Positions 54,357-64,000 of a stretch of 64,000 nt of DNA are shown piece after piece; the first letter of the stretch is position 1; the number at the start of each line of letters is the position of its first letter. This DNA comes from Streptomyces sp. WMMC940. Its GTDB lineage: Bacteria > Actinomycetota > Actinomycetes > Streptomycetales > Streptomycetaceae. Under the pieces are notes generated by a model. That model was given only the letters and a program-made list of their open reading frames with translations, was not told where the DNA came from and searched no databases. Location of the stretch: assembly GCF_027460265.1 (NCBI RefSeq), contig NZ_JAPZBC010000001.1, positions 1,426,001 to 1,490,000 on the forward strand. Reading direction: 5' to 3'. Made by a program: the position numbers and the translations under genes.

Positions 54357-54923
54357 ATGAGCATCACCGTGACCACGTGGTCCCTGGAGCAGACCTCGTC
54401 CTCCGATCTGCGTCCCGCTGCCGAGCCCTCGGGGGACGTCCGGATCGTGCGCGCCGAGGTCCCCTCGCCGGAGTTCAGCCGCTTCCTCTACACGGCGGTC
54501 GGCGGGGACATCGACTGGACCGACCGGCTGGGCCTGACGTACGCGCAGTGGGAGGAGACGCTCACCAGGCCGGGGGTCGAGACGTGGGTCGCGTACGAGC
54601 GGGGCACACCCGCCGGGTACGTCGAGCTGGAGGCCCAGGAGGAGGGTGCCGTCGAGATCGTCTACTTCGGACTGATCCCGGCGTTCCGCGGCAGGCGGAT
54701 CGGCGGCCATCTGCTGTCGTACGGCACCGCCCGCGCCTGGGACCTCGCGGAGCGCTGGCCGGGGCGCGTGCCGACGAAGCGGGTCTGGCTGCACACCTGT
54801 TCCAAGGACGGCCCGCACGCGATGGACAACTATCTGCGCCGGGGCTTCGCGCTCTTCGACACCAAGGTGGAGGAGGAGCCGGAGGTCGCCATACCCGGGC
54901 CCTGGCCCGGCGCCCCGGGCTGA
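54357..54923 (+). CDS. GNAT-family N-acetyltransferase
   Basis: Protein of 188 residues. The acetyl-CoA binding motif A is VEIVYFGLIPAFRGRRIGGH then LLSYGTARA, and the final strands are VWLHTCSKDGPHAMDNYLRR and GF. The order fits single-domain GNAT proteins of the small-molecule or protein N-acetyltransferase type; the substrate is unknown. The ATG at 54357 is used; upstream in-frame residues to 54123 are Arg/Pro/Cys-rich and unsupported. Confidence 0.9.
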   Translation: MSITVTTWSLEQTSSSDLRPAAEPSGDVRIVRAEVPSPEFSRFLYTAVGGDIDWTDRLGLTYAQWEETLTRPGVETWVAYERGTPAGYVELEAQEEGAVEIVYFGLIPAFRGRRIGGHLLSYGTARAWDLAERWPGRVPTKRVWLHTCSKDGPHAMDNYLRRGFALFDTKVEEEPEVAIPGPWPGAPG

Positions 54924-55108
54924 CCCCCGACCCGTGATCCCGGCCGGCGCCCTCGATCGACGCCGGCCTGCCGACCCCGCCCAGGCCCCGCCCAGAACCC
55001 CCGCTGCGGCACCCTCGGCCGGCCCCGCGGGCCCGATCCGGAGCCCGGTCGGCGCACGGCGCTCCGGCCCGGCCCCGGCGTCCTCGGGCCGGGTGACCGA
55101 CCCCACAT

Positions 55109-55136
55109 TGTCTCATGATGCGGGACACTCTTGTCC
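55109..55136. promoter_or_regulatory. Candidate operator region of the sulfur operon
   Basis: In the least GC-rich stretch before the leader peptide, TGTCTC (55109-55114) faces GGGACA (55122-55127), and GGACA (55123-55127) faces TGTCC (55132-55136) around CTCT. The overlapping symmetries suggest a dimer binding site near the promoter. I do not know the regulator. Confidence 0.45.
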
Positions 55137-55188
55137 AAATGATGGATAGCGGTGGACTGGGTCCAAAGTCCCGTGACACGCTTCCGTC

Positions 55189-55272
55189 ATGTCTCGAGCT
55201 GGAATTGCCTTGGTGAGTCGGCGGCACGTCGACCTCGGCCGCATGTCCAGCGCCATGTGTCGCGCGGCCTGA
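55189..55272 (+). CDS. Cysteine-type leader peptide of the sulfur assimilation operon
   Basis: A 27-residue ORF. Its core LVSRRHVDLGRMSSAMCR matches the actinobacterial putative leader peptide family found before sulfur and cysteine genes (typical core SRRHVDLxRxxSAxCR). A Cys codon lies four codons before the stop. When charged Cys-tRNA is scarce, a ribosome stalled there could alter RNA folding and allow transcription or translation of the downstream genes. The ATG at 55189 has no clear ribosome binding site; a GTG at 55213 would start the conserved part. The structural genes begin 150 bp later. Confidence 0.8.
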   Translation: MSRAGIALVSRRHVDLGRMSSAMCRAA

Positions 55273-55281
55273 GTGTCCCCG

Positions 55282-55297
55282 GGGGCCCGTCGGCCCC
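55282..55297 (+). promoter_or_regulatory. Candidate attenuator hairpin after the leader peptide
   Basis: GGGGCC at 55282-55287 and GGCCCC at 55292-55297 form a 6 bp stem with a CGTC loop, 9 bp after the leader stop. Its position suits the regulatory stem of a ribosome-mediated attenuator; alternative pairings were not calculated. Confidence 0.45.
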
Positions 55298-55422
55298 GGC
55301 ACCAGTTCCCCCGCGTTCCCTGAGATCCCCGACCTCCGCGCATCGCCGCGCCCGCCCGTGAAACCGGGTGCTCATGTGCAGGTCAGAGCCGACCTCCCGT
55401 AGTCCCGAAGGACGTAACCGCC

Positions 55423-57120
55423 ATGGCCGCCACCCCCGGAAAGCCCGCCACCGCCACGCCCCGCCGCAAGGCCGGACGCCACCGCGGCGAGGGCCAGTGG
55501 GCCGTTGGCCACTTCACACCTCTGAACGGCAACGAGCAGTTCAAGAAGGACGACGACGGTCTCAATGTACGGACACGTATTGAGACGATCTACTCCAAGC
55601 GCGGATTCGACTCGATCGACCCGAACGACCTCCGCGGCCGCATGCGCTGGTGGGGCCTGTACACCCAGCGCCGGCCCGGGATCGACGGCGGCAAGACCGC
55701 GATCCTGGAGCCGGAGGAACTGGACGACGAGTACTTCATGCTGCGCGTCCGCATCGACGGCGGGCGGCTGACCACCGAGCAACTGCGCGTCATCGGCGAG
55801 ATCTCGCAGGAGTTCGCACGCGGCACCGCCGACATCACCGACCGGCAGAACGTCCAGTACCACTGGATCCGCATCGAGGACGTGCCCGAGATCTGGGAGC
55901 GGCTGGAGGCCGTCGGCCTGTCCACCACCGAGGCTTGCGGTGACACCCCGCGCGTCATCCTCGGCTCCCCGGTCGCGGGCATCGCCGAGGACGAGATCGT
56001 CGACGGCACCCCGGCCATCGACGAGATCCAGCGCCGGATCGTCGGCAACAAGGCGTTCTCGAACCTCCCCCGCAAGTTCAAGTCGGCGATCTCCGGCTCG
56101 CCGCTGCTGGACGTGGCGCACGAGATCAACGACATCGCCTTCGTCGGGGTGAACCACCCCGAGCACGGCCCCGGCTTCGACCTGTGGGTCGGCGGTGGCC
56201 TCTCCACCAACCCGAAGATCGGCGTCCGGCTGGGCGCCTGGGTGCCGCTGGACGAGGTTCCGGACGTCTACGAGGGCGTCATCTCGATCTTCCGCGACTA
56301 CGGCTACCGGCGGCTGCGCACCCGTGCGCGGCTGAAGTTCCTGGTCGCCGACTGGGGCGCGGAGAAGTTCCGCCGGGTGCTGGAGGACGAGTACCTGGGG
56401 CGCCCGCTGACCGACGGTCCGGCGCCCGAACAGCCCCTGCAGCGCTGGCGCGACCACGTCGGTGTGCACCGGCAGAAGGACGGCCGCTTCTACGTCGGCT
56501 TCGCCCCGCGTGTCGGCCGGGTCGACGGAGCCACCCTCACCAAGATCGCCGAGGTGGCGGAGGCGCACGGCTCGGGCCGGGTGCGTACCACCGCCGAGCA
56601 GAAGATGATCGTCCTCGACATCGAGGAGTCACAGGTCGAGTCGCTGGTGTCCGGGCTGGAGTCGCTGGACCTGCGGGTCGCTCCGTCCCCGTTCCGCCGC
56701 GGCACGATGGCCTGCACCGGCATCGAGTTCTGCAAGCTGGCCATCGTCGAGACCAAGGCCCGCGGTGCCGCGCTGATCGAGGAACTCGAGCGCCGCATCC
56801 CGGATTTCGACGAGCCGATCACGATCAACATCAACGGATGCCCCAATGCCTGCGCCCGTATCCAGGTCGCGGACATCGGTCTCAAGGGCCAGCTGGTGCT
56901 GGACGAGAACGGCGAGCAGGTGGAGGGCTTCCAGGTCCACCTGGGCGGTGCGCTGGGCCTGGAGGCCGGATTCGGCCGCAAGGTCCGCGGACTGAAGGTC
57001 ACCGCGGCGGAGCTCCCCGACTACGTCGAGCGCGTGCTGGGACGCTTCCAGGTGGAGCGCGAGGACGGCGAGCGCTTCGCCGCCTGGGTGGCTCGCGCAA
57101 GCGAGGAGTCACTCTCATGA
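55423..57120 (+). CDS. sirA: Ferredoxin-dependent assimilatory sulfite reductase
   Basis: Protein of 565 residues, the NirA/SirA type that reduces sulfite to sulfide with six electrons from ferredoxin using siroheme and a 4Fe-4S cluster. Cluster Cys are in ACTGIEFCKLA (near 430) and ININGCPNACAR (near 470). In mycobacterial NirA an active-site Tyr-Cys cross-link is known; the matching Tyr (WWGLYTQRRPG) and Cys (STTEACGDTPR) are present here, which favours sulfite over nitrite. It is the first enzyme gene of the operon and overlaps the next tiny ORF by 4 bp (ATGA). Confidence 0.93.
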   Translation: MAATPGKPATATPRRKAGRHRGEGQWAVGHFTPLNGNEQFKKDDDGLNVRTRIETIYSKRGFDSIDPNDLRGRMRWWGLYTQRRPGIDGGKTAILEPEELDDEYFMLRVRIDGGRLTTEQLRVIGEISQEFARGTADITDRQNVQYHWIRIEDVPEIWERLEAVGLSTTEACGDTPRVILGSPVAGIAEDEIVDGTPAIDEIQRRIVGNKAFSNLPRKFKSAISGSPLLDVAHEINDIAFVGVNHPEHGPGFDLWVGGGLSTNPKIGVRLGAWVPLDEVPDVYEGVISIFRDYGYRRLRTRARLKFLVADWGAEKFRRVLEDEYLGRPLTDGPAPEQPLQRWRDHVGVHRQKDGRFYVGFAPRVGRVDGATLTKIAEVAEAHGSGRVRTTAEQKMIVLDIEESQVESLVSGLESLDLRVAPSPFRRGTMACTGIEFCKLAIVETKARGAALIEELERRIPDFDEPITININGCPNACARIQVADIGLKGQLVLDENGEQVEGFQVHLGGALGLEAGFGRKVRGLKVTAAELPDYVERVLGRFQVEREDGERFAAWVARASEESLS

Positions 57121-57212
57121 GCCACGCACGCGCGGCCACCCGGCCGCAGCCGACCACGCAGCCCGCACCCCCGCGCCGCGCGGGCGGAGAAGCGAAAGGG
57201 GACGTGCGGTGA
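57117..57212 (+). CDS. Tiny coupled ORF between sirA and the zinc ribbon gene
   Basis: A 31-codon frame (MSHARAATRPQPTTQPAPPR and 11 more residues), Pro/Arg-rich and without a domain. Its ATG overlaps the sirA stop (ATGA) and its stop overlaps the next GTG (CGGTGA), so it forms an unbroken translational bridge. It may be a real micro-protein or only a coupling device. Confidence 0.4.
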   Translation: MSHARAATRPQPTTQPAPPRRAGGEAKGDVR

Positions 57213-57388
57213 GCGAGCGGGCTGCCCCTTTCCACTGTCCCTACTGCGGCGACGAGGATCTTCGTCCGAACGAGCAGGGCCACGGCGCCTGGGAATGCGC
57301 GTCGTGCAACAGGGCCTTCCAGCTGAAGTTCCTCGGGCTGCTCGCCCGCGGGGTTCGGCGCAACGACGACGGAGGGGACGCGATATGA
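57209..57388 (+). CDS. Small zinc-ribbon protein of the cys operon
   Basis: Protein of 59 residues from a GTG start. Two Cys pairs, CPYC near 10 and CASC near 31, form a zinc ribbon between HCPYCGDEDLRPNEQG and NRAFQLKFLGL. It lies between sulfite reductase and APS reductase, overlapping the tiny ORF before it and cysH after it by 4 bp (ATGA). Conserved small proteins occur at this place in other Streptomyces; a role in redox or cofactor handling during sulfur reduction is a guess. Confidence 0.8.
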   Translation: MSERAAPFHCPYCGDEDLRPNEQGHGAWECASCNRAFQLKFLGLLARGVRRNDDGGDAI

Positions 57389-58095
57389 CGGCGGTACGGA
57401 CCCGACGGACCGGGGACGAGCTCAGGTCGCTGGCCGAGGCGGCCGGGCGGGACCTCGAGGAGGCGTCCGCCCTGGACATCCTGACGTGGGCGGCGGAGAC
57501 CTTCGGCCCGCGCTTCTGCGTCACCTCCTCCATGGAGGACGCGGTCGTGGCCCATCTGGCCTCGCGCGCCTTCCCCGGGGTCGACGTGGTCTTCCTGGAC
57601 ACCGGCTACCACTTTCCCGAGACCATCGGCACGCGTGACGCGGTCGGGGCCGTGATGGACGTCAACCTCATCACGCTCACCCCGCGCCGGTCGGTGGCGG
57701 AGCAGGACGCCGAGCACGGCCCGCGGCTGCACGACCGCGACCCCGACCTGTGCTGCGCGCTGCGCAAGGTCGAGCCCCTCGAGGAGGGGCTCGCCGCCTA
57801 CGACGCCTGGGCTACCGGCCTGCGCCGCGACGAGTCCCCGACCAGGGCGGGCACCCCCGTCGTCGGCTGGGACGAGAAGCGCCGGAAGGTCAAGGTCTCG
57901 CCGATCGCCCGCTGGACACAGGCGGACGTGGACGGATACGTCGCGGAACACGGCGTCCTCACCAACCCGCTGCTCATGGACGGTTACGCCTCGGTGGGCT
58001 GCGCACCCTGCACCCGACGGGTGCTCGAGGGCGAGGACGCGCGAGCCGGCCGATGGGCGGGGCGCGCGAAGACCGAGTGCGGGCTGCACGGCTGA
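57385..58095 (+). CDS. cysH: Phosphoadenylyl/adenylyl-sulfate reductase
   Basis: Protein of 236 residues. The PAPS-reductase core has the P-loop-like SSMEDAVVAH and LDTGYHFPETIGTRD. Cys pairs CCALRK near 119 and CAPC near 212, plus the C-terminal ECGLH nucleophile, identify the 4Fe-4S APS-reducing subgroup, which turns APS into sulfite and AMP. The ATG at 57385 overlaps the previous stop. A cysC gene follows, so APS can also go to PAPS. Confidence 0.95.
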   Translation: MTAVRTRRTGDELRSLAEAAGRDLEEASALDILTWAAETFGPRFCVTSSMEDAVVAHLASRAFPGVDVVFLDTGYHFPETIGTRDAVGAVMDVNLITLTPRRSVAEQDAEHGPRLHDRDPDLCCALRKVEPLEEGLAAYDAWATGLRRDESPTRAGTPVVGWDEKRRKVKVSPIARWTQADVDGYVAEHGVLTNPLLMDGYASVGCAPCTRRVLEGEDARAGRWAGRAKTECGLHG

Positions 58096-58160
58096 TGACG
58101 GCGCCCGCGACCACAGCAGACCATCCGACCGAACCGACCCTGAATCAACGGGAGATGCAC

Positions 58161-58694
58161 GTGACTGGGGCCACGATCTGGCTCACGGGGCTGCCGAGCG
58201 CGGGCAAGACCACCATCGCGCACGAGCTGGCCGGCCGGCTGCGCGGCGAGGGCCACCGCGTCGAGGTGCTCGACGGCGACGAGATCCGCGAGTTCCTGTC
58301 CGCGGGCCTCGGTTTCAGCCGTGAGGACCGGCACACCAACGTCCAGCGGATCGGTTTCGTCGCCGAACTGCTGGCGTCCAACGGTGTGACGGTCCTGGTG
58401 CCGGTGATCGCCCCGTACGCGGACAGCCGCGAGGCCGTCCGCAAACGGCACGGTGCCGAGGGCACGCCGTATGTGGAGGTGCACGTGGCGACCCCGGTCG
58501 ACGTGTGCGCGGTGCGCGACGTCAAGGGTCTGTACGCCCGGCAGGCGGCCGGCGAGATCAGTGGCCTGACCGGTGTGGACGACCCGTACGAGGCACCGGA
58601 GTCCCCGGACCTGCGGATCGAGTCGCACACTCAGACCGTGCAGGAGTCGGCGCAGGCGCTGCACGCGCTGCTCATCGAGAGGGGACTGGCATGA
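58161..58694 (+). CDS. cysC: Adenylyl-sulfate kinase
   Basis: Protein of 177 residues. The P-loop is LTGLPSAGKTTIAHELAGRL; EVLDGDEIREFLSAGLGFSR and DVKGLYARQAAGEISGLTGV are the APS kinase motifs. It makes PAPS from APS and ATP. The GTG at 58161 is chosen because CGGGAG lies 6 bases upstream and the family match begins at residue 3. An ATG at 58095, which overlaps the cysH stop, would add 22 unconserved residues and is the main alternative. Its stop overlaps the cysD start by 4 bp. Confidence 0.9.
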   Translation: MTGATIWLTGLPSAGKTTIAHELAGRLRGEGHRVEVLDGDEIREFLSAGLGFSREDRHTNVQRIGFVAELLASNGVTVLVPVIAPYADSREAVRKRHGAEGTPYVEVHVATPVDVCAVRDVKGLYARQAAGEISGLTGVDDPYEAPESPDLRIESHTQTVQESAQALHALLIERGLA

Positions 58695-59629
58695 CGACCA
58701 GCATCGACGTCGTGGGCGAGAGCACGGACAGCCCGTACGCGCTGACGCACCTGGACGCTCTGGAGTCCGAGGCGGTGCACATCTTCCGCGAGGTGGCGGG
58801 CGAGTTCGAGCGGCCGGTGGTCCTCTTCTCCGGCGGCAAGGACTCCATCGTCATGCTGCATCTCGCGCTGAAGGCCTTCGCTCCCGCGGCGATCCCGTTC
58901 TCGCTGCTGCACGTGGACACGGGGCACAACTTCCCCGAGGTCATCGAGTACCGGGACCGTGTGGTCGCGCAACACGGTCTGCGTCTCCATGTGGCCTCCG
59001 TACAGGACTACATCGACCGCGGTGTGCTCCGCGAGCGTCCCGACGGCACCCGTAACCCGCTGCAGACCGTTCCGCTGACGGAGGCCATCCAGCAGCACCG
59101 CTTCGACGCGGTGTTCGGCGGCGGACGGCGCGACGAGGAGAAGGCCCGGGCCAAGGAGCGGGTGTTCTCGCTGCGCGATGAGTTCTCCCAGTGGGACCCG
59201 CGGCGCCAGCGCCCCGAGCTGTGGCAGCTCTACAACGGCCGCCACGCGCCCGGTGAGCACGTCCGTGTGTTCCCCCTCTCCAACTGGACCGAGCTGGACG
59301 TCTGGCAGTACATCCAGCGCGAGCGGATCGAGCTGCCGGAGATCTACTTCGCCCACGAGCGGGAGGTCTTCGCCCGTAACGGAATGTGGCTGACCGCCGG
59401 CGACTGGGGCGGCCCGAAGGACGGCGAGACGCCCGAGAAGCGGCTGATCCGCTACCGCACCGTCGGCGACATGTCCTGCACGGGCGCCGTCGACTCCGAC
59501 GCCTCCACGCTGGACGCCGTGATCGCCGAGATCGCCGCCTCCCGGCTCACCGAGCGGGGAGCGACCCGCGCCGACGACAAGCTGTCCGAGGCCGCGATGG
59601 AAGACCGCAAGCGCGAAGGGTACTTCTAG
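58691..59629 (+). CDS. cysD: Sulfate adenylyltransferase small subunit
   Basis: Protein of 312 residues with the PP-loop VVLFSGGKDSIVMLHLALKA and the C-terminal family end REGYF. Together with CysN it makes APS from sulfate and ATP. Further conserved runs are HVDTGHNFPEVIEYRD and FGGGRRDEEKARAKERVFSL. The ATG at 58691 overlaps the cysC stop (ATGA); cysN begins 2 bp after it. Confidence 0.96.
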   Translation: MTTSIDVVGESTDSPYALTHLDALESEAVHIFREVAGEFERPVVLFSGGKDSIVMLHLALKAFAPAAIPFSLLHVDTGHNFPEVIEYRDRVVAQHGLRLHVASVQDYIDRGVLRERPDGTRNPLQTVPLTEAIQQHRFDAVFGGGRRDEEKARAKERVFSLRDEFSQWDPRRQRPELWQLYNGRHAPGEHVRVFPLSNWTELDVWQYIQRERIELPEIYFAHEREVFARNGMWLTAGDWGGPKDGETPEKRLIRYRTVGDMSCTGAVDSDASTLDAVIAEIAASRLTERGATRADDKLSEAAMEDRKREGYF

Positions 59630-59631
59630 AC

Positions 59632-60972
59632 ATGACCAGCTCCACCGAGCAGTCGGCCGAGCAGTTGTCGGCCACCACCCTGCTGCGCTTCGCCACCGCC
59701 GGTTCCGTCGACGACGGCAAGTCCACCCTGGTGGGCCGGCTGCTGCACGACTCCAAGTCGGTGCTCGCCGACCAGCTGGAGGCCGTCGAGCACGCCTCCC
59801 GCTCCCGTGGCCAGGAGGCTCCCGACCTGGCGCTGCTGACCGACGGTCTGCGGGCCGAGCGGGAACAGGGCATCACGATCGACGTGGCGTACCGTTACTT
59901 CGCCACTCCTCGGAGGCGGTTCATCCTTGCCGACACGCCGGGGCACGTGCAGTACACCCGGAACATGGTCACGGGCGCCTCGACGGCCGAGCTGACGGTG
60001 ATCCTCGTCGACGCCCGCAACGGCGTGGTCGAGCAGACCCGCCGGCACGCCGCGATCGCCGCGCTGCTGCGCGTCCCGCACGTCGTCCTCGCCGTGAACA
60101 AGATGGACCTGGTCGGCTACGAGGAGTCCGTCTTCGCCGCGATCGCAGAGGAGTTCACCGCGTACGCGAGCGAGCTGGGCGTCCCGGAGATCACCGCGAT
60201 CCCGATCTCGGCGCTGTCCGGCGACAACGTGGTGGACCCCTCCGCGAACATGGACTGGTACGGCGGCCCGACGGTGCTGGAGCATCTGGAGTCCGTGCCG
60301 GTGAGCCACGATCTGACCAGCTGCCACGCACGCTTCCCGGTGCAGTACGTGATCCGTCCGCAGACCGCCGAGCACCCGGACTACCGCGGCTACGCGGGCC
60401 AGATCGCCGCCGGCACGTTCCGCGTCGGCGAGGGCGTGACCGTGCTGCCGTCGGGCCGCACGTCGAGGATCGCGGGGATCGACCTGCTGGGCGAGCCGGT
60501 GGACGTCGCCTGGACCCCGCAGTCGGTGACGCTGTTGCTGGAGGACGACGTCGACGTCTCCCGCGGCGACATCGTCGTGCCGAGCGACGACGCGCCCGCC
60601 ACGACGCAGGACGTCGAGGCCACGGTCTGCCATGTCGCCGACACCCCGCTCACGGTGGGCGCGCGGGTGCTGCTGAAGCACACCACCCGCACGGTGAAGG
60701 CGATCGTGAAGGAGATCCCGTCGCGGCTGACGCTCGACGACCTGTCCCAGCATCCGGCTCCCGGGCAGCTGGTGGCCAACGACATCGGCAGGGTCCGGGT
60801 CCGCACCGCCGAGCCGCTGGCGCTCGACGCGTACGCGGACTCCCGCCGTACCGGGTCCTTCCTGCTGATCGACCCCGCGGACGGTACGACCCTGGCGGCC
60901 GGTATGGCGGGCGAGTCCTTCGCCACCGCCGATGCCGCGCCGGTCCAGGACGACGAGGGGTGGGACTTCTGA
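59632..60972 (+). CDS. cysN: Sulfate adenylyltransferase large subunit (GTPase)
   Basis: Protein of 446 residues related to EF-Tu. G1 is AGSVDDGKSTLVGRLLHDSK, G2/switch has GITIDVAYRYFAT, G3 is LADTPGHVQYTRNM, and G4 is AVNKMDLVGY. GTP hydrolysis drives APS formation by CysD. The length equals stand-alone CysN; it is not a CysNC fusion, in line with a separate cysC upstream. The start is 2 bp after cysD. Confidence 0.96.
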   Translation: MTSSTEQSAEQLSATTLLRFATAGSVDDGKSTLVGRLLHDSKSVLADQLEAVEHASRSRGQEAPDLALLTDGLRAEREQGITIDVAYRYFATPRRRFILADTPGHVQYTRNMVTGASTAELTVILVDARNGVVEQTRRHAAIAALLRVPHVVLAVNKMDLVGYEESVFAAIAEEFTAYASELGVPEITAIPISALSGDNVVDPSANMDWYGGPTVLEHLESVPVSHDLTSCHARFPVQYVIRPQTAEHPDYRGYAGQIAAGTFRVGEGVTVLPSGRTSRIAGIDLLGEPVDVAWTPQSVTLLLEDDVDVSRGDIVVPSDDAPATTQDVEATVCHVADTPLTVGARVLLKHTTRTVKAIVKEIPSRLTLDDLSQHPAPGQLVANDIGRVRVRTAEPLALDAYADSRRTGSFLLIDPADGTTLAAGMAGESFATADAAPVQDDEGWDF

Positions 60973-61073
60973 TGACGATCGACGCGTACGCGACCTTCGC
61001 CAAGGAGGGCGGCCGCGTGGGCAGCGGTGTGCTCGGCGCGGGTTCGGGAGGTGTCACGCGATGTGTCCGATGA
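60972..61073 (+). CDS. Tiny coupled ORF after cysN
   Basis: A 33-codon frame (MTIDAYATFAKEGGRVGSGV and 13 more residues, ending TRCVR) that shares one base with the cysN stop (TGATG). No domain is recognisable. It ends with a Cys codon three codons before the stop, which loosely recalls the operon leader peptide. It could be a real micro-protein, a secondary leader, or chance. Confidence 0.35.
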   Translation: MTIDAYATFAKEGGRVGSGVLGAGSGGVTRCVR

Positions 61074-61198: not shown

Positions 61199-62308
61199 GT
61201 GCCTGCATCCCGTACGACCCTGCGCCGCGGTCTCGCCGCCGCCGCGGCGCTCCCCCTGCTGGCCGTCGCGTCCACCGCCTGCGGCTACGGCTCCCAGGCA
61301 AAGGACGACGAGAGGCCCGTGGTGGCCGCCGAGGGCAGGAAGCTCTCCGCAGACACCGTCCGCGTCGGCTACCTCCCGAACCTGACCCACGCCACCGCCC
61401 TCGTCGGCGTCCAGGAGGGGATCATCCAGAAGGAGCTCGGCGGCACCAGGCTCACGCCGCAGGCCTTCAACGCGGGCCCGTCCGCGATCGAGGCCCTCAA
61501 CGGCGGCTCCCTCGACATCGGCTTCATCGGCCCCTCGCCGTCCGTCAACGGGTACGTGAAGTCCAAGGGCAAGAACCTGCGGATCGTCTCCGGTTCCGCG
61601 TCCGGTGGCGTGAAACTCGTCGTCGACCCGGACCGGATCAAGACCCTGGACGACGTCAGGGGCAAGCGGATCGCCACCCCGCAGAAGGGCAACACCCAGG
61701 ACGTCGCGTTCCTGAACTGGGCCTCCGGCAAGGGCTGGAAGGTCGACGCGGAGAGCGGCGAGGGCGACGTCTCGGTGGTTCGCACGGACAACAAGATCAC
61801 CCCGGGCGCCTACAAGTCCGGCTCGATCGACGGCGCCTGGGTGCCGGAGCCGACCGCGTCCCAGCTGGTCTCCGAGGGCGCGAGGGTCCTCCTCGACGAG
61901 ACGGCGCTGTGGCCCGGCGGGAAGTTCGTGATCACCAACGTCATCGTGTCGCAGACGTTCCTGAAGGAGCACCCGGACGTCGTCGAGGCCGTGCTCCGCG
62001 GCACGGTGAGGACGAACGCCTGGATCAACGCCAACCCGGAGAAGGCCAAGGCGTCCGCCAACGCGGCCCTGAAGGCCGAGACCGGCAAGGCGCTCGCCCC
62101 GGAGGTCATCGACCCGGCCTGGCCGAGCATCCGGGTCACGGACGACCCGCTGGCCGCCACGCTCAGGACGCAGTCCGAGTGGGCGGTGAAGGCCGAGCTC
62201 ATCGACGAGCCCGACCTGAACGGCATCTACGACCTGACTCTGCTGAACAAGGTGCTGAAGGCCGAAGGAAGGCCCGGGGTCGCCGACGCCGGCCTCGGCG
62301 CGAAGTAG
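61199..62308 (+). CDS. Sulfonate/nitrate-type ABC transporter substrate-binding lipoprotein
   Basis: Protein of 369 residues. The signal peptide (LRRGLAAAAALPLLAVASTA) ends at Cys28 followed by GYGSQ; the lipobox reads S-T-A-C, atypical in having Ser instead of Leu at -3. The periplasmic-binding fold of the SsuA/TauA/NrtA group follows (VRVGYLPNLTHATALVGVQE, FNAGPSAIEALNGGSLDIGF, SIDGAWVPEPTASQL). It probably binds sulfate esters or alkanesulfonates on the outer face of the membrane. The GTG at 61199 has GAGAGGAAA upstream. It is co-transcribed with cysN and the ATPase and permease genes. Confidence 0.9.
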   Translation: MPASRTTLRRGLAAAAALPLLAVASTACGYGSQAKDDERPVVAAEGRKLSADTVRVGYLPNLTHATALVGVQEGIIQKELGGTRLTPQAFNAGPSAIEALNGGSLDIGFIGPSPSVNGYVKSKGKNLRIVSGSASGGVKLVVDPDRIKTLDDVRGKRIATPQKGNTQDVAFLNWASGKGWKVDAESGEGDVSVVRTDNKITPGAYKSGSIDGAWVPEPTASQLVSEGARVLLDETALWPGGKFVITNVIVSQTFLKEHPDVVEAVLRGTVRTNAWINANPEKAKASANAALKAETGKALAPEVIDPAWPSIRVTDDPLAATLRTQSEWAVKAELIDEPDLNGIYDLTLLNKVLKAEGRPGVADAGLGAK

Positions 62309-62351
62309 GCACGCGAGTCCCCGAACCGAAAGTTCCCAGGAGGTGACGACC

Positions 62352-63143
62352 ATGGCCACCACGCTTGCCGAGGCCGCCGTGGACACCACAGCGGTGTCGC
62401 ACGCCGCCAGGATCGAGCACGTCTCGAAGTCCTTCTCCGGTCCGGCCGGATCGCAGCTCGTCCTCGACGACATCAGTCTCGATGTCGCCGCCGGCGAGTT
62501 CGTCACCATCCTCGGGGCGTCGGGATGCGGCAAGTCCACGCTGCTCAACCTGGTCGCGGGGCTGGACCGGCCGAGCACCGGGTCCATCGAGACGCCCGGC
62601 GGACGGCCCGCCCTGATGTTCCAGGAGCACGCCCTCTTCCCGTGGCTGACCGCGGGCAAGAACATCGAACTCGCCCTGCGGCTGCGCGGGGTCCCCAAGG
62701 CCGGGCGCCGGGCCGAGGCCGAGCGGCTGCTGGAGCTGGTCCGACTCGGCGGCGCGCACGGCAAGCGCGTCCACGAGCTGTCCGGCGGCATGCGCCAGCG
62801 GGTCGCCCTGGCGCGGGCGCTCGCGCAGGACAGCGATCTGCTGCTGATGGACGAGCCGTTCGCGGCGCTCGACGCCATCACGCGTGACGTGCTGCACGGC
62901 GAGCTGACCCGGATCTGGCGCGAGACGAACGTGTCGGTCCTGTTCGTCACGCACAACGTCCGCGAGGCGGTGCGGCTCGCCCAGCGCGTGGTCCTGCTGT
63001 CCTCACGGCCCGGCCGGGTGGCCCGCGAGTGGGCCGTGGACATCCCGCAGCCGCGCCGTATCGAGGACGCCGCAGTGGCGGAGCTGTCCGTCGAGATCAC
63101 TGAACAACTGCGTGGGGAGATCCGCCGACATGGCCAGCACTGA
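62352..63143 (+). CDS. ABC transporter ATPase, SsuB/TauB type
   Basis: Protein of 263 residues. Walker A GASGCGKSTLLN, Q-loop MFQEHALFPWLT, signature LSGGMRQRVALARAL, Walker B LLLMDEPFAALD, and H-loop LFVTHNVREAVRLAQRV are all intact. It energises uptake with the lipoprotein and permease. The ATG at 62352 has AGGAGGTGA upstream; a GTG at 62343 lies inside that site and is rejected. Its last 14 bp overlap the permease gene. Confidence 0.94.
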   Translation: MATTLAEAAVDTTAVSHAARIEHVSKSFSGPAGSQLVLDDISLDVAAGEFVTILGASGCGKSTLLNLVAGLDRPSTGSIETPGGRPALMFQEHALFPWLTAGKNIELALRLRGVPKAGRRAEAERLLELVRLGGAHGKRVHELSGGMRQRVALARALAQDSDLLLMDEPFAALDAITRDVLHGELTRIWRETNVSVLFVTHNVREAVRLAQRVVLLSSRPGRVAREWAVDIPQPRRIEDAAVAELSVEITEQLRGEIRRHGQH

Positions 63144-64000
63144 AGTCCGCGACGGCGTCACGAAGGCGGGCACGTCCCCCGCCGGGCGCGACGACCTCGC
63201 CGGTCTCGAGGCCGGCCTGGACGCGCTCGACGCCGTCGAGATCCGCCGCACGCCGGTGCGCGAGCTCCTCGTGAAGAAGGTCGTGCCGCCGGTCGTGGCG
63301 GTCGCCCTCGTCCTCGTGGTGTGGCAGGTCCTGGTCTCGGCACAGGTCACGACCGAGGACAAGCTGCCCGCGCCGTCCGCGGTGTGGACGGGTCTGTCCG
63401 ACATGTGGCTGCAGGGCACCCTGTTCGACGTCATCTGGACCAGCGTGTCGCGCGGTCTCTTCGGCTTCCTGCTGGCCCTCGCCATCGGCACCCCGCTCGG
63501 TCTGCTCGTGGCACGGGTGAAGTTCGTCCGTGCCGCGATCGGACCGATCCTGTCCGGTCTGCAGTCGCTGCCGTCGGTGGCGTGGGTGCCGCCGGCCGTC
63601 ATCTGGCTGGGCCTGAACGACTCGATGATGTACGCGGTGATCCTGCTCGGCGCGGTGCCGTCGATCGCGAACGGACTCGTGTCCGGCGTCGACCAGGTGC
63701 CGCCGCTGTTCCTGCGGGCCGGACGGACGCTCGGCGCCACCGGCCTGAAGGGCACCTGGCACATCGTCATGCCGGCCGCCCTGCCGGGCTATCTGGCGGG
63801 TCTGAAGCAGGGCTGGGCCTTCTCCTGGCGCTCGCTGATGGCGGCGGAGATCATCGCCTCCTCCCCCGACCTGGGTCTCGGCCTCGGCCAGCTGCTGGAG
63901 AACGGCCGCAACAACATCGACATGCCCGGAGTGTTCCTCGCGATCCTCCTGATCCTGATCGTCGGCATCGCCGTCGATCTGCTCGTCTTCAGCCCGCTGG
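63130..64000 (+). CDS. ABC transporter permease, SsuC/TauC type (partial, runs off the window)
   Basis: At least 290 residues, cut by the window end. A polar N-terminus of about 50 residues precedes membrane helices (VVPPVVAVALVLVVWQVLVS, FGFLLALAIGTPLGLLV and others). The cytosolic EAA loop is AGRTLGATGLKGTWHIVMPA, the site that docks the ATPase. The family is the BPD_transp_1 permease of sulfonate, taurine and nitrate importers. The ATG at 63130 lies within the end of the ATPase gene, so translation is coupled. Only the last helix or so is probably missing. Confidence 0.93.
   Translation, partial: MASTEVRDGVTKAGTSPAGRDDLAGLEAGLDALDAVEIRRTPVRELLVKKVVPPVVAVALVLVVWQVLVSAQVTTEDKLPAPSAVWTGLSDMWLQGTLFDVIWTSVSRGLFGFLLALAIGTPLGLLVARVKFVRAAIGPILSGLQSLPSVAWVPPAVIWLGLNDSMMYAVILLGAVPSIANGLVSGVDQVPPLFLRAGRTLGATGLKGTWHIVMPAALPGYLAGLKQGWAFSWRSLMAAEIIASSPDLGLGLGQLLENGRNNIDMPGVFLAILLILIVGIAVDLLVFSPL

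Follow-up and report, generated by a model that had tools for sequence, protein, structure and literature searches.

A conserved micro-ORF with a fixed UGU codon, probably a cysteine-sensing leader peptide, ahead of sirA-cysHCDN in Streptomyces sp. WMMC940, and a candidate second leader inside the operon

The window (the whole 64,000-nucleotide stretch of DNA analysed here, from a genome of 7.67 Mb) closes with a run of sulfur genes, all on the forward (+) strand. The sulfite reductase gene sirA (55423..57120; NIR_SIR and NIR_SIR_ferr) is followed by a 31-aa ORF without an NCBIfam hit (57117..57212), a 59-aa CxxC-rich ORF between sirA and cysH that has sub-cut-off zinc-ribbon matches alone (57209..57388), cysH (57385..58095; PAPS_reduct), cysC (58095..58694; APS_kinase, start set by sequence), cysD (58691..59629; PAPS_reduct domain, named from context) and cysN (59632..60972; GTP_EFTU, start set by sequence). 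The genes of a transporter come next: an SsuA-like substrate-binding lipoprotein (61199..62308; NMT1_2), an ABC transporter ATPase (62343..63143, with 62352 as an alternative start; ABC_tran) and a putative ABC permease, named from its ORF and position, that extends past the window end (63112..63999). Micro-ORF 1 lies 150 bp upstream of sirA, and micro-ORF 2 lies between cysN and the SsuA-like gene. A 125 bp gap separates micro-ORF 2 from the lipoprotein start at 61199, and the gap before the ATPase is 43 bp if that gene starts at 62352; the spacings given in the sequence-only reading are therefore right when micro-ORF 2 is counted as a gene and the later ATPase start is used.

Micro-ORF 1 (55189-55272, +) has an ATG start, 27 codons and a TGA stop, with the product MSRAGIALVSRRHVDLGRMSSAMCRAA; its sole Cys is codon 24, a TGT (55258..55260, +). 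It scores 32.6 bits against NF042934, a cis_reg_atten model for a "putative leader peptide" that consists of a 19-position core with a membership threshold of at least 27 bits, and 31.0 bits in a genome-wide search with the same model. The window SirA shares 94% identity with the Streptomyces pacificus protein, and a SirA contig scan supplied 80 comparison loci, the best 80 of 556 confirmed, all from Streptomyces. The leader was picked up in 78 of these 80 loci by a strict pattern and in 79, plus the window, by a looser one. Micro-ORF 1 is more than a chance ORF because 80 of the 81 records carry an in-frame copy ahead of sirA; the 81st (L065) is truncated by a contig end and holds just 116 bp upstream of the gene. 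The 27-codon ORF with a near-terminal Cys codon, as described in the sequence-only reading, is thus a conserved feature.

The sirA leaders share the near-invariant core ALVSRRHVDLxRxSSAxC. In all 80 sequences codon 8 is TTG, codon 10 is AGT and codon 24 is TGT, spellings that make up 0.7%, 0.9% and 1.0% of the codons for their amino acids in sirA of the same genomes. Codon conservation in general does not mark the leader as special: its mean over 61 sequences and 16 columns is 0.946, while the best 18-codon stretch of sirA reaches 0.957. Among the leader codons, just these rare-codon identities stand out.

At E <= 0.001, NF042934 had matches in at least 144 of the 197 genomes from the class (at least 65 of 90 genera) and exceeded its cut-off in at least 128, these survey counts being lower bounds with at most 43 candidates scored per genome; it matched in none of 14 control genomes. 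We examined 114 family loci, found by a peptide HMM together with a pattern demanding D/E and C: five from the window's own genome (L009 being below the cut-off), 29 from the class survey and 80 picked from the top of the matches listed, with L103 dropped for want of a core, so that 113 were read. In 94 of them a relative of one of 13 reference proteins is encoded within 1.4 kb downstream, namely a sulfurtransferase (47), SirA (14), a cysteine dioxygenase (12), CysM (10), CysH (6), an SsuA-like protein (2), CysD (1), SsuB (1, weak) or an isopenicillin-N-synthase-like oxygenase (1); 19 are unassigned. The four above-cut-off copies in the window's genome stand before sirA, cysO-cysM, a cysteine dioxygenase gene and a sulfurtransferase gene, and the sub-cut-off copy (L009, 1492-1578) precedes the gene for the oxygenase. 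L190 and L196 have the leader ahead of a gene that by eye resembles that of a 2-oxoacid:ferredoxin oxidoreductase subunit and is no obvious sulfur gene. The cysteine dioxygenase loci (for example L006, 1501-1572) put the leader ahead of a cysteine-degrading enzyme, where a sensor opened by shortage would be odd. Family match, conservation and the genes downstream of its relatives together support micro-ORF 1 as a cysteine-type leader peptide, as had been proposed from the letters alone, and it probably senses cysteine shortage.

The spelling of the key Cys codon is the same across the family: it is TGT in 113 of 113 loci (90 genomes, 45 genera). For the other Cys codons of the same stretch, the 105 peptides that lack Cys runs use TGC 122 times and TGT 10 times (Fisher p 3e-56, with loci treated as independent and no phylogenetic correction, while 30 of the 113 come from the window's genus); with the eight Cys-run peptides counted too the totals become 150 TGC and 33 TGT, and the Cys codons of the downstream ORFs are 237 TGC and 46 TGT. 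The loci were collected by a peptide search, which leaves the third codon base free of selection by method. ARAGORN, applied to each of the 66 tRNA-match loci in the window genome, detected one tRNA-Cys gene, with anticodon GCA, and made no call at one weaker match (3977216-3977287). This single tRNA would read both Cys codons, and therefore charging of isoacceptors cannot explain the fixed UGU. Nor does retention for base pairing account for it: over the 113 loci the third base is paired at 0.45 against 0.53 for its neighbours, and changing it from U to C is predicted to stabilise the fold in 52% and destabilise it in 27%. Attenuation theory links leader codon bias to selective charging of isoacceptor tRNAs (PMC1183508); a UGU that is fixed over 113 loci and 45 genera beside one tRNA-Cys departs from this, and some other property of how one codon is decoded must matter. 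We infer that the GCA tRNA reads UGU more slowly, by wobble.

Upstream of the leader we see a probable −35 element, TGGACT (55153..55158, +; TGGACT in 77 and TGGACC in 3 of 80 sequences), and a probable −10 element, CACGCT (55177..55182, +; CACGCT in 74, CAGGCT in 5 and AACGCT in 1). A scan for consensus sigma-70 promoters found none upstream of micro-ORF 1. The TGGAC/CAnGCT pair sits at a constant −36/−12 relative to the leader ATG in all 80 sequences, none of which has a Shine-Dalgarno-like motif 5' of that ATG; sirA is preceded by a Shine-Dalgarno in 79 of the 80. A leaderless transcript starting at or near the leader ATG is likely because of the fixed pair and the missing Shine-Dalgarno.

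Farther upstream are two dyads, as had been noticed before, when an additional protein operator was suggested. The proximal one, the candidate NdgR operator GTCCAAATGATGGAT (55133..55147, unstranded; −56 to −42 from the leader ATG), matches a 15-bp NdgR motif obtained by ChIP-seq in S. coelicolor (PMC4340878) and is conserved. The best match to this motif falls at −56 in 77 of the 80 sequences, with 1.66 mismatches on average where shuffled sequences have 4.43; the copy in the window departs from the motif at 3 positions, a level reached by 123 of 500 shuffles and so not significant alone, and the whole window holds 251 places with at most 3 mismatches where 166 are expected. NdgR ChIP-seq binding upstream of the S. 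coelicolor cysI-cysHCDN operon (PMC4340878) adds to the motif, and together they support a protein operator upstream of the leader. The distal dyad, TTGTCTC-N7-GGGACA (55108..55127, unstranded), is a possible second operator from its sequence, of variable symmetry among orthologues; in several species it forms a near-perfect palindrome, CTTGTCTC...GGGACAAG.

We aligned 59 chosen leader sequences for RNA structure; the other 21 of the 80, whose loops hold insertions or whose spacers diverge, were removed by hand, a choice that favours structure. Hairpin P1, inside the ORF at codons 4-21 (55199..55250, +), contains the rare codons TTG8 and AGT10 and has 98.3% of its cells paired, mostly through invariant pairs. 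P2 usually runs from the second base of codon 25 through the stop codon, beginning one base after the UGU; 88-92% of its cells are paired. The window's predicted form of P2 (55269..55305, +) also spans the stop codon but is atypical in starting eight bases after the UGU, some 7 bases later than usual. The GC hairpin that had been noted after the ORF is present (GGGGCC-CGUC-GGCCCC, 55282-55297) and proves to be an apical extension of P2, found in similar form in L018. Eight other leaders (L036, L038, L061, L063, L072, L080, L091 and L097) have long P2-loop insertions of differing sequence in a comparable place. P3, in the spacer, has 88% of its cells paired, and P4 (GUCC-CGAA-GGAC, 55402..55413, +), which contains the sirA Shine-Dalgarno, 95.2%. 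Over the whole structure both partners have changed in 13 cells, where shuffles give 3.9 (none of 500 as high). P2 alone has 6 such cells against 1.7 (1 of 500), but counted by pair it has 3 in which both partners have changed, against 1.4, a number that 39 of 500 shuffles reach, so that covariation offers modest support for P2.

Conserved hairpins P2 and P4 appear in the 59 chosen sequences. The fold energy of the whole leader shows no excess over shuffles (z −0.04), and a scan of 54950-55450 found no intrinsic terminator. The GC hairpin has no U-run. The sequence-only reading had raised a possible attenuator; one of the classical kind is not supported, given the negative terminator scan and the single regulatory codon. 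About half of bases 20-40 past the leader stop are C, and 12-15% are G; this C-richness is no evidence of a Rho site, the best 40-base C-minus-G stretch averaging 14.8 against 14.5 in shuffled spacers. The hairpins kept 3' of the Cys codon and at the sirA Shine-Dalgarno would allow translational or Rho-linked control.

The reading we prefer, to which we give a probability of about two-thirds (0.66), is that micro-ORF 1 is a cysteine-sensing leader working through ribosome stalling at the UGU, by analogy with mycobacterial leaders. RNA polymerase would start at or next to the leader ATG, and translation would initiate without a Shine-Dalgarno. Under a shortage of Cys-tRNA, the ribosome would stall with codon 24 in its A site; the usual P2 begins one base after the UGU, which would place its 5' arm under the stalled ribosome. 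A changed fold, or shielding of the nascent RNA from Rho, would then raise sirA-cysHCDN expression. With plentiful cysteine the ribosome would finish the leader, P2 would form and expression would stay low. NdgR would work separately, at initiation. The ORF, its conservation, the TGT, the hairpins and the operator-like site are read from the DNA, and translation, stalling and a response to cysteine we infer. Several things count against this reading: there is one Cys codon, where modelling has the sensitivity of attenuation grow with many regulatory codons (PMC1183508); the terminator scan was negative; and the whole-leader z-score, the modest support for P2, the atypical P2 of the window, a spacer no richer in C than its shuffles and the cysteine dioxygenase loci add to this.

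The weakness of one codon for codon-only control (PMC1183508) is also a point in favour of an arrest peptide, in which R-x-[H/A]-V-D-L-x-R would act in the exit tunnel and cysteine, or some other metabolite of sulfur, would cause translation to arrest at the UGU, the peptide rather than the codon alone being the sensor. The residues do persist over the 113 loci while wobble bases vary (Arg −4: G57 C29 T15 A12), pointing to selection on the peptide, but part of that conservation arises by construction from the peptide HMM and the D/E and C pattern by which the loci were found, and peptide sensing itself does not explain the UGU spelling; we think this account unlikely. That the peptide is conserved merely through hairpin P1 is ruled out for the family by the variable wobble bases of other leaders; among the sirA leaders P1 may still have a role.

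The same free variation of wobble bases in the leaders of other genes speaks against a structured RNA, in which P1-P4 would serve as the binding site of a ligand or protein, with the ORF incidental. Such an element would fit an almost invariant P1 within the ORF that contains rare codons; mostly invariant pairs are, however, weak evidence, no Rfam match was found in 54900-55600, and when codons 4-22 are recoded synonymously the fold is almost as good (31 distinct regions; z from −2.4 to 0.2, mean −1.1), and we give it very little credence. Control at initiation by NdgR and other factors, with little or no sensing role for micro-ORF 1, has on its side the position of the NdgR motif at −56 and, at the S. 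coelicolor operon, the NdgR binding together with a response to diamide (PMC4340878). It leaves unexplained the conserved peptide, the fixed TGT and the recurrence of this leader, over 45 genera, ahead of sulfur genes of several kinds, and seems improbable as the whole explanation.

Micro-ORF 2 (60972..61073, +; 33 aa, MTIDAYATFAKEGGRVGSGVLGAGSGGVTRCVR), whose start overlaps the cysN stop, is a candidate second, internal cysteine leader. It is present in 67 of 71 Streptomyces records, window included (10 of the 81 sirA records, of 12 kb or shorter, were outside this search, and L047 and L069, without a transporter match, were dropped). In the window's family it occurs in 109 of 121 genomes and 13 of 17 genera; across the order it was found in 77 of 99 genomes, all of them from the window's genus (77 of 84) and none from two other families (0 of 15). 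In its RC motif the Cys codon (61062..61064, +, with CGA just before) is TGT in 67 of 67 records and in 49 of 50 further loci, the window being counted among the latter and L256 being the exception; in all 50, cysN and a binding-protein gene adjoin it. We found no NCBIfam match for it and, by a crude scan, no promoter-like site. A hairpin is predicted 3' of its Cys codon; the U of the TGT falls within the predicted stem, so a pairing role for that U is possible. The CGATGT is not a hidden start codon, L243 and L249 having GACTGT or CAGTGT yet keeping the TGT.

In the sequence-only reading, one small peptide could control sulfate reduction and sulfonate uptake together. A second conserved micro-ORF with a near-terminal TGT stands before the transporter genes, and therefore this is doubtful; in addition, the portion of the NdgR target table examined, with SCO5563 and then SCO6097 (cysN) to SCO6102 (cysI), includes no transporter gene (PMC4340878). 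Micro-ORF 2 would probably repeat the cysteine check for the transporter genes, which suggests stepwise cysteine control inside one operon. Micro-ORF 1 itself is unremarkable within its known leader family; the two unusual observations are the fixed UGU and the candidate second leader, and we met no mention of either in those parts of the open-access literature that were searched. We offer, as a tentative proposal that may well be wrong, that cysteine leaders of Actinomycetes depend on UGU itself, the sensor being a single codon read by wobble that follows a conserved nascent peptide, and that the Streptomyces sulfur operon has two unrelated leaders of this kind in series, the second (AKEGGRxGSG...GGVxRC) belonging to an undescribed family that would gate sulfonate-type uptake apart from sulfate reduction.

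Among known systems, NF042934 is the closest in sequence, micro-ORF 1 exceeding its curated cut-off with the same core; it differs in being a peptide model with no mechanism attached, of which the TGT rule is apparently no part. Polycysteine leaderless leaders of mycobacteria were reportedly described by Canestrari et al. in 2020, to which we take two models of Cys-rich leaders, NF042936 (Ms4527A) and NF042933 (Ms5788A), to be tied. Micro-ORF 1, with one Cys, scores 29.7 bits against NF042936 and 14.7 bits against NF042933, below the cut-off of 45 in both cases. It resembles the mycobacterial leaders in being a short, probably leaderless ORF with Cys coded near its end, sulfur genes after it and no obvious terminator (PMC1262725, PMC4633059, PMC9031893), and differs in having one Cys rather than a run. 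The mycobacterial leaders are reported to work through cysteine-dependent translation attenuation (PMC9031893, PMC13236596); a comparative study described Mycobacterium cysteine leaders without terminators and proposed Rho, in a passage that calls the prediction weak (PMC1262725). Of the eight leader peptides given in an S. lividans survey, none is assigned to cysteine (PMC8079986). The classical attenuators (trp, his, leu) likewise have a leader ORF with codons for the pathway product ahead of an operon and a biased codon choice, of which the rare codons of the leu leader are the textbook case (PMC1183508); they differ from the present leader, for which no terminator was found in 54950-55450, a single regulatory codon is present and no second tRNA-Cys was detected. 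The S. coelicolor NdgR regulon, as treated in the NdgR passages of PMC4340878, differs in that the leader is absent from that account; it is alike in having the same gene order (SCO6102-SCO6097), and its targets include cysI (SCO6102, a putative nitrite/sulfite reductase gene with cysH, cysC, cysD and cysN beside it), cysM and cysA, whose relatives by annotation in the window genome all bear the leader (L005 and L008 in the case of cysM and cysA).
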